Assembly: GCF_016735595.1 (NCBI RefSeq)
Contig: NZ_JAERRB010000011.1
Coordinates: forward strand, 1 to 64,000
DNA length: 64,000 nucleotides
Direction: 5' to 3'
DNA from: Chryseolinea lacunae
Lineage (GTDB): Bacteria; Bacteroidota; Bacteroidia; Cytophagales; Cyclobacteriaceae
Numbering within the stretch: the stretch's first letter is position 1; every line of letters starts with the position of its first letter. The position numbers and the translations under genes were made by a program. The notes beneath the pieces are model-generated. The model did not search any database. It saw nothing but the letters and a program-made list of their open reading frames with translations, and was not told the origin of the DNA. Shown here in pieces: positions 4,470-25,062 of the stretch.

Positions 4470-4667
4470 ACCGATAGGGGATAGGGTGAGGATGAAGTTG
4501 CCAGAAGTTAAGATAATAAATAATCTACCCTGATTTTGTTTTGGCGCCCTAAAATGTTTGTTCTGTATTAGGTTTTGGTTGGATTTATGGCAGCGATTAG
4601 CCTGAACGGTAATGTGAGTTCGGCATGCAATAGATCGGTCAGAAGGCACGCCGTTTCAGAGGAATAC

Positions 4668-4730
4668 CAACGTTGGAGTTTGGAATACCGGCATCGTTGT
4701 TCTGGTTGATCGGCGGGATGTTGGTTTTGT
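4668..4730. repeat. Detached three-unit block of the 21-bp repeat
   Basis: Units start at 4668 (CAACGTTGG), 4689 (CGGCATCG) and 4710, again exactly 21 bp apart. The 47 bp at 4683-4729 match 1975-2021 at the end of the main array with one mismatch. The permease gene therefore lies between two near-identical repeat ends in direct orientation. Confidence 0.85.
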
Positions 4731-7893: not shown

Positions 7894-8610
7894 ATGAACC
7901 CCATCTCACCCCAGGATTTTCTTCAGCTCATGATGACCGGTGGCGTCATCGAAAATATGAGTGTGACCGGCAACGTTGAAGCCATGATGCAGAATTTCCA
8001 GAACCCCGTCATCATCCTCAATTGCGAGATACCCATGCTTGCGCTAAACGAGTCGCCCGTGCAATCGCTCACCATCGCGGGCACGCTGACGCAGATCCCG
8101 TCATTAGTTTTGGTAGGTCAGAACACCAACTTCTCGTTGCTCTGCATCGAAGACGACGCCTCCATAGGAAGCCTGTCACTCTCGGGCATGGGCCAGTCCA
8201 CGACGTTAACGGTTGACGGCAATGTCAATTCGGTGTCGCTCAACGACTGCTCGATCCAAACCGTTGAGGTCGTAGCAACAAACCAAATAAACACGGTTTC
8301 GCTAACCAGTGTCGTGTTCATAAACAGCCTTAGGCTTATTGGCCCCTATCAAACCGTGACCGCCGGCTTCTCCTCGTGCAACACCTTGATTTTCGAAGAT
8401 ACCACCGTCACCACAATCAACATAAATTCATCACCCATCGTCAACTATCAATTCACCAATCACCAGGGCGGCACCCTCAGCTTCGACTCCACCTCCTTCA
8501 AACAATCCCGCTCCCTCGCATTCAACGAAACCTCATTCGAAACCATAACCGTAAACGGCGACCAGAACCGGACGTTTGCAAATTTGGCGGTGACGTTGAC
8601 GGGGCAGTAG
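7894..8610 (+). CDS. Beta-solenoid-like hypothetical protein
   Basis: A 238-residue protein made almost entirely of short beta-strand-like segments with a recurring pattern of a hydrophobic strand, a polar turn and Ser/Thr/Asn ladders, e.g. VQSLTIAGTLTQIPSLVLVG, IGSLSLSGMGQSTTLTVDG, VNSVSLNDCSIQTVEVV, INTVSLTSVVFINSLRLIG. The roughly 20-24 residue periodicity suggests a right-handed beta-helix or another solenoid. There is no signal peptide, lipobox or membrane helix, and no catalytic motif. Low Lys/Arg and high Ser/Thr/Asn content would suit an extracellular or structural protein, yet no export signal is visible. No family was recognised. It lies directly upstream of a REP-like element and the IS110 element. 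Confidence 0.65.
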   Translation: MNPISPQDFLQLMMTGGVIENMSVTGNVEAMMQNFQNPVIILNCEIPMLALNESPVQSLTIAGTLTQIPSLVLVGQNTNFSLLCIEDDASIGSLSLSGMGQSTTLTVDGNVNSVSLNDCSIQTVEVVATNQINTVSLTSVVFINSLRLIGPYQTVTAGFSSCNTLIFEDTTVTTININSSPIVNYQFTNHQGGTLSFDSTSFKQSRSLAFNETSFETITVNGDQNRTFANLAVTLTGQ

Positions 8611-8666
8611 CAATGCTTTGATAAAAACATAGGTGAGTTAACACATTGTACAATTGGAGGTCGTAG

Positions 8667-8753
8667 CATAGTCTGCGCTTCGTGACTATGCGTTTTAAAT
8701 GAGCAATGTCCTTTGCGATCAACGTTTGGCTTCGGAATACGCCAAGTCCCCGA
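8667..8753. repeat. REP-like palindrome pair, copy A (right palindrome interrupted)
   Basis: At 8667-8690 lies a palindrome with CATAGTC and GACTATG arms (P1). After a spacer containing CTTCGGAATACGCC comes CAAGTCCCCGA at 8743-8753, the left half of a second palindrome (P2). The intact P2 at 10175-10198 continues with GACGGGAGACTTG. Here that right half is missing and the IS110 element begins instead. Confidence 0.75.
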
Positions 8754-8763
8754 TTTCTATGTT

Positions 8764-9771
8764 TCAAGCAAGGGCATTTTGGTAATTTTTTTGATATAGT
8801 CTGTTGTTGTTGACGCAAGCAAAAACGCGACTTATCAACTTATTACGCACAGCGTTGATAACACTCATTTTGTTTTTACCCTCTAATACTTTCCTGTGAT
8901 AGTATGTTTTTAAGTCGTCGTCGTGGACCATAGCTGTCATGGCTGCCATATGCAACAATTTCTTGAGGGTCATATTGGCCATTTTGGATACCCGTGTCTT
9001 TCCTCTAACAGAACTTCCTGAACTGTGTTCAAACGGGGCCACTCCCGAGTAACAGGCAAACTTCTTTGCATCCTTGATACGAGTGAATTCTGCTGTGGAG
9101 ACAATTATATTCAATCCTGTGATCTTGCCCAGCCCGGTGACCGAGGTTACCAATTGATATTGTCGATCTATTTCAGTGTCGCTTTTGACCAGAGCATCTA
9201 TTGTCTTCTCAATCTTTTGAATATCATTTTTCAGGCTTTTAATCGAACTTTGACAACTCTTCGCTATCGCTTTGTATAATGACTCTTCGATAAATTCCTC
9301 GCATTCTTTTATTGGTCCCTGCAGTTCAGTTTTGACTTTCACCAGGCGTTCTCGGGTTACCAACAGGGCTTTTAGTTTCTGGATAATCAATCTCTGAGGA
9401 GTCCAGAATTTGAGACTTTCGCGGTTTTTGTAAGCGTATAGCGCGATACGCTGAGCATCAATTTTGTCAGTCTTTCCACGCACAAGGCCCTGGGATTGCT
9501 TTATTTGAAATGCGGATTCAACACATACCTGAATCTGATTTCCGATCAGAAACTCAAGCAACGGCCGACAATAAATCCCCGTGTGCTCCATACACACAAC
9601 AAGTTGATCGTACGAAATTGAAAACTTCTTCTTTAGATCACTAAACAAGGCCTGGATTGGCTTGCTTGCATTTTCGGCTTCAATCGGGTGGAAATTCTTG
9701 CCATCCACGGTGAGGGCACCATCGAATTTTTTCTTTGCGATGTCTATCCCTAAAAAATAAACAGTTTTCAT
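8764..9771 (-). CDS. IS110-family transposase (DEDD recombinase)
   Basis: A 335-residue recombinase. The N-terminal RuvC-like domain starts MKTVYFLGIDIAKKKFDGAL with the first catalytic Asp at residue 10. VCMEHTGIYCRPL supplies the Glu, and GKTDKIDAQRIALYA the Asp pair. A helical middle region rich in Lys/Glu follows. The C-terminal transposase_20 domain has VTSVTGLGKITGLNIIVS (HhH-like) and CYSGVAPFEHSSGSSVRGKT, with the Ser region thought to carry the catalytic serine. The length is normal for the family and the frame is intact, so the element may be active. It is the only gene of its IS. Confidence 0.95.
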   Translation of the reverse strand: MKTVYFLGIDIAKKKFDGALTVDGKNFHPIEAENASKPIQALFSDLKKKFSISYDQLVVCMEHTGIYCRPLLEFLIGNQIQVCVESAFQIKQSQGLVRGKTDKIDAQRIALYAYKNRESLKFWTPQRLIIQKLKALLVTRERLVKVKTELQGPIKECEEFIEESLYKAIAKSCQSSIKSLKNDIQKIEKTIDALVKSDTEIDRQYQLVTSVTGLGKITGLNIIVSTAEFTRIKDAKKFACYSGVAPFEHSSGSSVRGKTRVSKMANMTLKKLLHMAAMTAMVHDDDLKTYYHRKVLEGKNKMSVINAVRNKLISRVFACVNNNRLYQKNYQNALA

Positions 9772-9780
9772 AAATTAGTC

Positions 9781-9949
9781 TTTTGATAATTAATGTATCC
9801 GTTAACGCTTCTAAACACTATCAAAACCTTAATAATAGGCCTGCTAACCTAAATTTCTATTTGATGCTTGTTTAGAAAAACTGACTGAGGATTAAATCGA
9901 GGAATAGGCCGAAAAGCCTTGCGGCGAGATTAAGTCACCTCAGTCAGTT
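9781..9949 (-). ncRNA. Candidate IS110 bridge RNA region
   Basis: The non-coding DNA just upstream of the transposase can form two hairpins. The larger pairs 9879-9890 (AACTGACTGAGG) with 9938-9949 (CCTCAGTCAGTT), a perfect 12-bp stem around a 47-nt interior that itself has partial pairing (AGGCC with GCCT, TTAAATCG with CGAGATTAA). The smaller pairs TTTTGATA at 9781-9788 with TATCAAAA at 9819-9826. Two structured loops in the 5' non-coding end match the known architecture of IS621-type bridge RNAs, where one loop reads the target and one the donor. The RNA would be read on the minus strand like the transposase. The boundaries and the loop-target pairing are inferred and untested. Confidence 0.55.
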
Positions 9950-10065
9950 GTTAACGTTATCCACAAATTCACATCCTTCAACAAAAGAAAAAAGAACCAA
10001 AAAAGAAAAAATCACTATGATGATGGTGAAGTGATGTCTTATTGTGAATACAAGTCTAAAGGAGG

Positions 10066-10198
10066 CGGGAGACTTGCCTTTGACGAGTGTCCCAACATAG
10101 TCTCCCGCTTCGGGGACTATGTTGTTTTGGAACGACAAATGTTCTTACGAATGAATTACAGCTTCGGAATGCGCCAAGTCCCCGAGACGGGAGACTTG
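10066..10198. repeat. REP-like palindrome array, copy B
   Basis: Contains the right half of P2 (CGGGAGACTTG at 10066-10076), a full P1 at 10096-10121 (arms CATAGTC and GACTATG with an inner CCCG/CGGG stem), a spacer with CTTCGGAATGCGC, and a full P2 at 10175-10198 (arms CAAGTC and GACTTG with an inner CCCG/CGGG). The P2-P1-P2 alternation resembles bacterial interspersed mosaic elements. Confidence 0.75.
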
Positions 10199-10257
10199 CC
10201 TTTGACGTTGGGGTTAGAACAAATGTTAAACTTCGCCACGACATCAAAAGACACACG

Positions 10258-11067
10258 TTACTTTTTCCTCTTCCGCTGCTTCAAATACACCCCGAAATCC
10301 CAATTCGCCTTCATTCTCTTTTCCTTCGCGGTCATGGTGGGATGTTGATCGATGAACTCTTTGTAGTAGAAACCCTCGCACTCAATAGTTTTCTGATAAT
10401 ACAGCACCATCTCAATCGACTCATATTCAGAAAGGAAATTATTGTGAGGAAACTCACTCGGCAGGTGATTTCTAAATAAAGTACTGCAAATGAAATAATT
10501 GATAAGGTTGGACTTGTTAGTGTCCGTGTCGTAAGAATTGAGAATAAGCTCCAACGGTGGTCCGGATTCATAAAGCACCTGCATTGCTAGCGTGATGCCG
10601 CCGATGGAGATGGTATACGTTGTCTTGTAAGGAAAGCAAAAGTTGAAAGAATCGATGCGGATAACAAAGTCACGCGGAAGTTCAAAGTTCAGGTCGTAGC
10701 GGCTGGCTTTGGCTGCGGTTTTTAAGGTGTTGTAGTCCAGGCCAAGTTCGTCAGGGGTGAAAAGATTTTTCCCGGCCGTTTTCCATTGGAGAACTCTCGC
10801 AACGCTGTCTTTAGTTAACATGGCCGTTTCGCGTAGCGCGATTTCTTTTTTGTCCTTATGCATTGTTGAGGCCACGAAATCGCCATTCTCGTCTTTCTTA
10901 AATTCCAGTGCATAAAGTGGGCGGCGACCTTCTTTTGTTGGGGGTTCGTCGACCATTTGGCTGGTGAGAATGATTTTTTTGACGACTTGTCCCCATGAAG
11001 GAACCGCCGTCGCGAAGAGAGGCAAAGTCAGAACTATGAATTTCAGGAAGCTTTTCGGCTGCATCAT
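10258..11067 (-). CDS. Exported hypothetical protein, about 269 residues
   Basis: The ATG at 11067 (MMQPKSFLKFIVLTLPLF) gives a clear Sec signal peptide ending near AVPSWGQ; an upstream in-frame ATG at 11085 only adds six residues before it. The mature protein is mixed alpha/beta with many charged residues and no membrane segment, so it is probably periplasmic or extracellular. Recognisable stretches include RRPLYALEFKKDENGDFVAS and YDLNFELPRDFVIRIDSF, but no domain was identified. The C-terminus is strongly basic (YLKQRKRKK). It stands alone between REP-like copy B and the SMI1/KNR4 gene, transcribed divergently from the latter. Confidence 0.65.
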   Translation of the reverse strand: MMQPKSFLKFIVLTLPLFATAVPSWGQVVKKIILTSQMVDEPPTKEGRRPLYALEFKKDENGDFVASTMHKDKKEIALRETAMLTKDSVARVLQWKTAGKNLFTPDELGLDYNTLKTAAKASRYDLNFELPRDFVIRIDSFNFCFPYKTTYTISIGGITLAMQVLYESGPPLELILNSYDTDTNKSNLINYFICSTLFRNHLPSEFPHNNFLSEYESIEMVLYYQKTIECEGFYYKEFIDQHPTMTAKEKRMKANWDFGVYLKQRKRKK

Positions 11068-11238
11068 AAACACAAACGTAGCCAAGCAACGTGATTGTTT
11101 ACGGTATCGGGAAAAATTTCTTCATGCTCCAGGGGATTTAGGTGTTGACGCCAGCGGGTTAATTCTGGTCGCCACTAAAATAAAAATCATCCCAACCCTT
11201 ATGACGCATCCTTTTCGAACCCTATCTTTTCGCCCGCT

Positions 11239-24964: not shown

Positions 24965-25062
24965 CAAGTCCCGGGGCGGGAGACTTGGCTTCGACAACAT
25001 GCTTAAGGTAATATTTAAATAGGGTGACTATCACTATATAGTCTCCCGCTTTGGGGACCATG
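24965..25062. repeat. REP-like palindrome pair, copy C
   Basis: A P2 palindrome at 24965-24987 (arms CAAGTC and GACTTG) is preceded by the same CTTCGGAATGCGC spacer seen in copies A and B. About 50 bp later a P1 copy at 25037-25062 (TATAGTC and GGACCATG arms, slightly diverged) is followed by TTGTTTTG as in copy B. The pair lies in the divergent promoter region between the DUF4139 gene and the propeller regulator. Confidence 0.75.

Follow-up and report, generated by a model that had tools for sequence, protein, structure and literature searches.

At one locus in the window, a 64,000-nt stretch at the start of contig C3 of the 7.9-Mb Chryseolinea lacunae genome, a transposable element separates the two halves of a short palindrome, which raises the question of whether the element was directed there and, if so, by what. 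A preliminary description of this DNA had proposed an IS110 element inside a REP-like palindrome. We consider it very likely that an IS110-family element inserted into the apical loop of such a palindrome because the guides of its bridge RNA specify this repeat family.

The element and its insertion site

Just as had been described, the split palindrome (P2) breaks off after its left half, CAAGTCCCCGA, at 8753 and continues with its right half, CGGGAGACTTG, at 10066; the transposase stop indeed lies only 10 bp from the left break (the ORF ends at 8764, the break follows 8753). The intact P2 reported at 10175-10198 has a pattern without any other match in the window (chance expectation, 0.00), and the copy reported at 24965-24987 with both halves contiguous is present as well, in diverged form. 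Repeat finding paired 8729-8753 with 10161-10185 and 10062-10085 with 10184-10207 (96% in both cases). The element splits the palindrome exactly at its apical loop, and the features of the site are as follows.

8667-8690, plus strand: P1 palindrome, inverted-pair partner of the split palindrome (model R1, 49.0 bits)
8743-8753, plus strand: left arm of the split palindrome, CAAGTCCCC, with core GA at 8752-8753 (sequence, repeat finding)
8754-10061, minus strand: body of the IS110-family element, 1308 bp, LE at 10061 and RE at 8754 (junctions, conserved ends in relatives)
8764-9771, minus strand: IS110 recombinase, 335 aa, with DEDD_Tnp_IS110 (PF01548) and Transposase_20 (PF02371)
10062-10076, plus strand: second core copy GA at 10062-10063 and right arm of the split palindrome, GGCGGGAGACTTG (sequence, repeat finding)
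10096-10121, plus strand: P1 palindrome of the intact neighboring pair (model R1, 58.8 bits)
10175-10198, minus strand: P2 palindrome of the intact neighboring pair (model R1, 53.9 bits)
24965-24987, minus strand: P2-type palindrome, second locus in the window (model R1, 51.5 bits)
25037-25062, plus strand: P1-type palindrome, second locus in the window (model R1, 45.0 bits)

The 2-bp core found at both junctions reads GA on the plus strand and TC in the orientation of the element. The junctions, in transposase orientation, read ...CAAGTCTCCCGCC-TC-CTTTAGACTTG (left) and ...ACATAGAAA-TC-GGGGACTTGGCG (right). The recombinase combines a RuvC-like DEDD domain with a Transposase_20 domain carrying the conserved serine, and the layout is that of the IS110 family, with 290 nt of noncoding DNA upstream of tnp (LE), 10 nt downstream (RE), and core TC. 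Solved relatives of the protein are IS621 and ISCro4; by motif, its residues D10, E62, D102, D105, and S251 match the IS621 active-site residues D11, E60, D102, D105, and S241 (PMC11208158). None of the five inverted-repeat pairs listed joins the two ends of the IS as terminal inverted repeats.

With a GC content of 39.7%, versus 50.8% in the rest of the window, the element is AT-rich relative to its surroundings, suggesting acquisition from elsewhere, probably by horizontal transfer. It lies between convergent ORFs, 7894-8610 (plus) and 10258-11085 (minus). Its recombinase is the only PF02371 match in the genome, which contains no second copy of the element, and a DNA-level match was found in none of five congeners; with one copy only, there is no replicate insertion. 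An unoccupied site, for which the preliminary description had proposed to look, was sought through the right-hand flanking gene as an anchor; this gene has no homologue in the five congeners, and no unoccupied allele was found. Further copies of the IS, expected to define its ends and core, were likewise absent from the genome and these congeners, yet more distant relatives place the ends at corresponding positions.

These relatives come from the same order; a search for the recombinase in 390 genomes was positive in 151 (E ≤ 0.001), if distant matches are counted. From 150 loci with a recombinase hit, we kept those with a recognizable CATAGAAA-type RE and CTTTAG-type LE and removed duplicates, which left 48; three of these had no flank (L016, L027, and L034), giving 45 elements with our own included. 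The surveyed relatives share 39 to 50% amino acid identity with our recombinase. Across the 45 elements, the right junction is TC in 44 (in L080, the RE is probably misplaced and the core was read as AA), while the left-junction dinucleotide is GC in 20, CC in 15, TC in 6, and AC in 4. Target and donor may differ in their first core base, and the one retained at the left junction seems to be the target's. Two Rhodocytophaga elements, L148 and L149 (∼49% amino acid identity), occupy different sites and have the same donor ends, CTTTAG and CATAGAAA-TC. Given that relatives end at CTTTAG and CATAGAAA without palindrome arms, the arms at our locus are target DNA and the element body spans 8754-10061.

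A dispersed family of REP-like palindromes

P1 and P2 belong to a single family in opposite orientations, the minus strand of P2 aligning with P1. The core stem, AGTC-T-CCCG nnn CGGG-GACT, comprises 11 bp with a bulged T. An independent alignment of nine copies contained 12 double-change cells, versus 3.7 in shuffles, and the pairing was lost when partners were slid. A covariance model built from these copies (R1; E ≤ 0.1) yielded at least 32 matches in the genome and, in the five congeners, at least 47, at least 30, at least 35, at least 21, and 0, with 150 candidates scored per genome. The R1 matches from 16 sources in the C. lacunae genome (the window plus 15 loci) form a set of 28 copies, whose alignment, fitted to the model, has 39 double-change cells versus 9.7 when shuffled; two of the five covariation measures did not rise above the shuffles (pairs with a double change, 163 of 500; pair types, 142 of 500). 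In line with the check that had been suggested, these alignments and model searches place P1 and P2 in one dispersed REP-like family with compensatory stem changes, the stem subfamilies of which include CCCG/CGGG and CTCG/CGAG.

An NGTC head precedes the hairpin on its 5' side in 24 of the 27 full-length copies in the genome (CGTC in 9, TGTC in 9), with a spacer of several nucleotides between this head and the bulged stem, and 18 of the 28 copies form nine inverted pairs. When compared with mechanically predicted ORFs, 10 of the 28 copies lie under no ORF of at least 60 aa, 14 under ORFs of 60 to 140 aa, and 4 under ORFs of 203 to 598 aa, so that 24 are under no ORF longer than 140 aa. As in REP and BIME sequences, the repeat is a short imperfect palindrome, dispersed and in many copies, with pairs in alternating orientation; a cognate RAYT flanked by the repeat was found at none of the 16 Y1_Tnp loci of the six genomes. 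A RAYT as the mobilizer of the palindrome was accordingly rejected: Y1_Tnp occurs in all six genomes of the genus, yet there is no R1 match at any of these loci. An Rfam scan of 8400-10600 returned four matches, none reaching its gathering score (best E, 0.13).

CGTC-tagged REPs, for which stems of 8 to 9 bp and loops of 4 to 5 nt have been described, list Bacteroidetes among their phyla (PMC3733652). Our repeat resembles them in its NGTC head, its inverted pairs, and its absence from Y1-transposase hits (16 of 16 in the genus), but it differs in the spacer between head and stem and in the 11-bp stem with a bulged T, a distinction drawn from the published description.

Other repeats are found nearby or next to the family. 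An apparent second palindromic repeat family adjoins a REP pair at G000:C3:145,579-145,900 (L096:680-1001), with the units CAGGTGACTCCTATCGGAGTC and GGATGCTCCTGACGGAGCG each present twice. In the window itself, a repeat scan revealed a cluster of direct repeats with a 21-nt period and long inverted repeats at 1443-2021 and 4662-4729 (CGACGTCGG / CGACGTTG, GAATACCGGCATCGG).

The predicted bridge RNA and its targets

The 5' noncoding region of the element is predicted to encode a bridge RNA, with target and donor loops complementary to target and donor DNA. Its proposed parts are as follows.

9821-9949, minus strand: predicted bridge RNA core; stem of the target-binding loop 9949-9938 with 9890-9879, donor-binding loop downstream
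9921-9929, minus strand: left target guide UCUCGCC followed by core positions GC; UCUCGCC against TCCCGCC with one U.G, first core position mismatched
9897-9904, minus strand: right target guide UUCCUCGA; last 7 nt pair with TCGGGGA with one U.G, first U unpaired
9852-9860, minus strand: left donor guide AUAGAAAUU, matching the RE end ATAGAAATC with a U.G at the last position
9821-9835, minus strand: probable right donor guide region UUAUUAAGGUUUUGA, with partial, discontinuous pairing to LE TCCTTTA

The minus-strand segment 9956-9806 folds with a minimum free energy of −43.5 kcal/mol (z = −3.75). In an alignment of 18 sequences, our own and 17 relatives, 17 of the 25 consensus pairs change on both sides; the stem of the target loop accounts for 10 of these, out of its 11 pairs. 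Across these sequences, the left donor guide does not vary at all, unlike two short blocks next to the first loop's apical hairpin, which stand where the bridge RNA presented in PMC11208160 has its left and right target guides. A discontiguous right donor guide is described in the same source, and given the partial pairing with LE, we infer that this guide lies in the region listed above.

The guide register was taken from relatives in which guide and target agree, L148 and L149 among them; the left block of L148, GCGGTTGCC, is identical to 9 nt of its own left target, and its right block can pair with the target on the right. In this homology-fixed register, our target guides pair with 14 consecutive bases at the tip of the palindrome, two of them as U.G. 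Against TCCCGCC-TC-GGGGA, all seven left positions and the last seven positions of the right guide, core included, are paired, with one U.G on each side. Two bases are left without a partner: the outermost one of the right guide and, in the left guide, the first core base (G against target T), a position that pairs in 38 of the 45 elements when positions are picked for the highest score. Our insertion site obtains 14.0 of 17, a value reached by none of 7623 other TC dinucleotides on both strands of the window (8600-10100 excluded), and the next-best sites, at 13.0 each, are the neighboring palindromes at 10109 (plus) and 10185 (minus). When the register was left free, 224 of the 7623 sites (2.9%) reached 14.0, and 3.5% of 1442 mismatched guide-target pairs scored as high. 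Over the 45 elements, the mean for own pairs was 14.54, compared with 11.61 for the 1442 mismatched pairs, which leave out element pairs with similar targets. Since the free-register scan is weak, the case for the guides rests on the register fixed by homology.

The preliminary proposal is borne out by the PF01548 and PF02371 domains, the dispersed family, and guides that match it, which support the element being an IS110 member in a dispersed REP-like repeat with predicted guides for that repeat. The junctions, the core, the donor ends, the repeat family, the covarying RNA fold, and the guide-target complementarity can all be read directly from the sequence. In the mechanism that we envisage, left guide UCUCGCC and right guide UCCUCGA would bracket the core TC of the target, where the recombinase would join the circular donor (RE CATAGAAA-TC-CTTTAG LE) to it. 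The guide would fit a CTCG/CGAG stem by Watson-Crick pairing, and the occupied CCCG/CGGG site would be read through one U.G per side. For this, as we infer, the RNA must be expressed and must direct insertion, and U.G pairs must be tolerated.

The guides spell TCTCGCC-TC-GAGGA, a version of the palindrome in which one stem pair has changed, in compensation, to T-A; the two guide positions that face a covarying stem pair in the repeat are both U. The guide predicted a CTCG/CGAG subfamily, and the repeats of the genome proved to include one. The pattern TCYCGYCTCGRGGA (at most one mismatch) has 14 sites there, versus 6 for the reversed pattern; 11 of the 14 are inside model R1 matches among those listed, and of all 14 sites, 6 carry CTCG/CGAG and a seventh has CTCG/TGAG. 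When the whole variant palindrome was searched in 295 genomes of the family, five were positive: C. lacunae, with seven sites, and four from a single other genus, g182 (G450 with two sites, G552 with four, G541 with three, and G563 with three). The reversed variant pattern gave two matches, in two other genomes. Palindromes in G450, G552, and G541 read AGTCTCTCGCCTCGAGGACT, matching the guide exactly over 14 nt, and G563 has near variants only of the 14-nt target. At locus L285 of G552, three AGTCTCTCGCCTCGAGGACT-type palindromes occur in dimers with CCCG/CGGG copies. No IS was found at the g182 palindromes in the seven stretches examined. We offer as a tentative idea, to which we would give somewhat less than even weight, that a wobble-degenerate guide is advantageous, reading CTCG/CGAG by Watson-Crick and CCCG/CGGG by U.G pairing and so tracking the compensatory evolution of the palindrome, and that the element may have come from g182, a genus of the same family with exact guide matches and with dimers of both subfamilies.

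Relatives, competing explanations, and significance

Copies of the IS in unrelated sequence had been named as evidence that would count against a palindrome target. No second copy of this IS was found in the genome or the five congeners, and the relatives at 39 to 50% identity do lie elsewhere, with correspondingly different guides. Guides that differ along with the sites are what bridge RNA targeting predicts. Among fold z-scores of the 45 joined target sites, ours ranks third (−2.77), and 39 of 45 are above −2. A hairpin shape as the general target rule of the clade was rejected on this count. Strong hairpins being a minority among the relatives' sites, it seems that the guide leads our element to the palindrome, and not that the clade requires hairpins.

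Some relatives have other repeats at their sites. L021, another Bacteroidota element, has the same donor ends and RNA layout as ours but different guides and a different dispersed repeat, GTCATTGCGAGGAACGAAG. Matches to this pattern number 31 in the genome of L021, 50 in that of L034, 37 in that of L038, and 96 in that of L039, against none when the pattern is reversed; it is exact only in the target of L021, that of L038 has one extra T, and those of L034 and L039 are different sequences with a similar beginning. All four elements are in or near GTCATT-type dispersed repeats, and their guides spell such sequences. L038 and our element have identical right guides, the 8-mer TTCCTCGA. In G387:C1, four near-identical IS110 copies (L144 to L147) all occupy a CGGGGCCGC/CGTGCGG site, and a distance of ∼1.6 kb separates two of the copies.

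Three other explanations of the locus were weighed against guidance by a bridge RNA. In the first, the element would recognize the palindrome by its shape, as a hairpin or cruciform, or would recognize a protein that binds it, with the guide match being a coincidence. The core does lie exactly at the apical loop, and it has been suggested that some REP-targeting transposases may recognize palindromic REPs in the way regulators recognize palindromic sites (PMC1525189). However, relatives insert where their own guides fit, 39 of 45 such sites having a fold z above −2, and none of the 7623 other sites in the window fits the guide as well as the palindrome tip, so that we regard recognition by shape as very unlikely. 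That the guide match is equaled by none of these sites also speaks against chance, by which an insertion between convergent genes happened to fall on a repeat. A single copy at a place where insertion is likely tolerated would agree with chance, but its position exactly at the loop would not, and we give this reading very little credence.

Finally, the palindrome arms could be terminal inverted repeats of the IS instead of its target, as their symmetry around the element might suggest. Intact palindromes free of the IS are present in this and related genomes, however, and relatives end at CTTTAG and CATAGAAA without such arms, which makes this explanation the least credible of the three, with a probability close to nil. 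Guidance by a bridge RNA programmed for the repeat family is therefore the reading that we retain.

IS110 elements that target REPs, to which the preliminary description had pointed, are indeed on record in Proteobacteria (PMC1525189, PMC11208160). The guide of E. coli IS621 spells ATCGGGCCTAC, and 74.5% of its mapped insertion sites are reported to read ATCAGGCCTAC (PMC11208160); by pairing rules, this one-base difference would be a G.T wobble. Our element resembles IS621 in its recombinase domains, its active-site residues, the position of the bridge RNA upstream of the recombinase gene, and insertion in REP elements. It differs in its core (TC versus CT), its repeat family and phylum, pairing of the right guide over seven positions versus four, and insertion at the tip of the loop. 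ISPpu9, ISPpu10, ISPa11, and ISRm19, all from Proteobacteria, are reported to split a REP in 7/7, 7/7, 6/6, and 4/4 copies, respectively (PMC1525189). Our element splits a REP as well, but whereas these are multicopy elements in proteobacterial REPs, it is present in one copy and its guide can be read out.

Literature searches, which covered titles and abstract openings of open-license PMC papers, brought up no REP-targeting IS110 element from Bacteroidota. The present case adds to proteobacterial REP targeting an element of the Cytophagales type, from Bacteroidota, with a REP-like family of its own. It also documents a guide system that has a TC core and pairs over 7 nt per side, in an IS110 lineage that is widely represented in the order. 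It shows that a target can be deduced in advance from a predicted bridge RNA, as CTCG/CGAG repeats were expected from the guide before they were seen. U.G pairs are suggested to widen the choice of targets within an evolving repeat family, which raises the testable question of whether natural bridge RNAs cover REP subfamilies through wobble positions.
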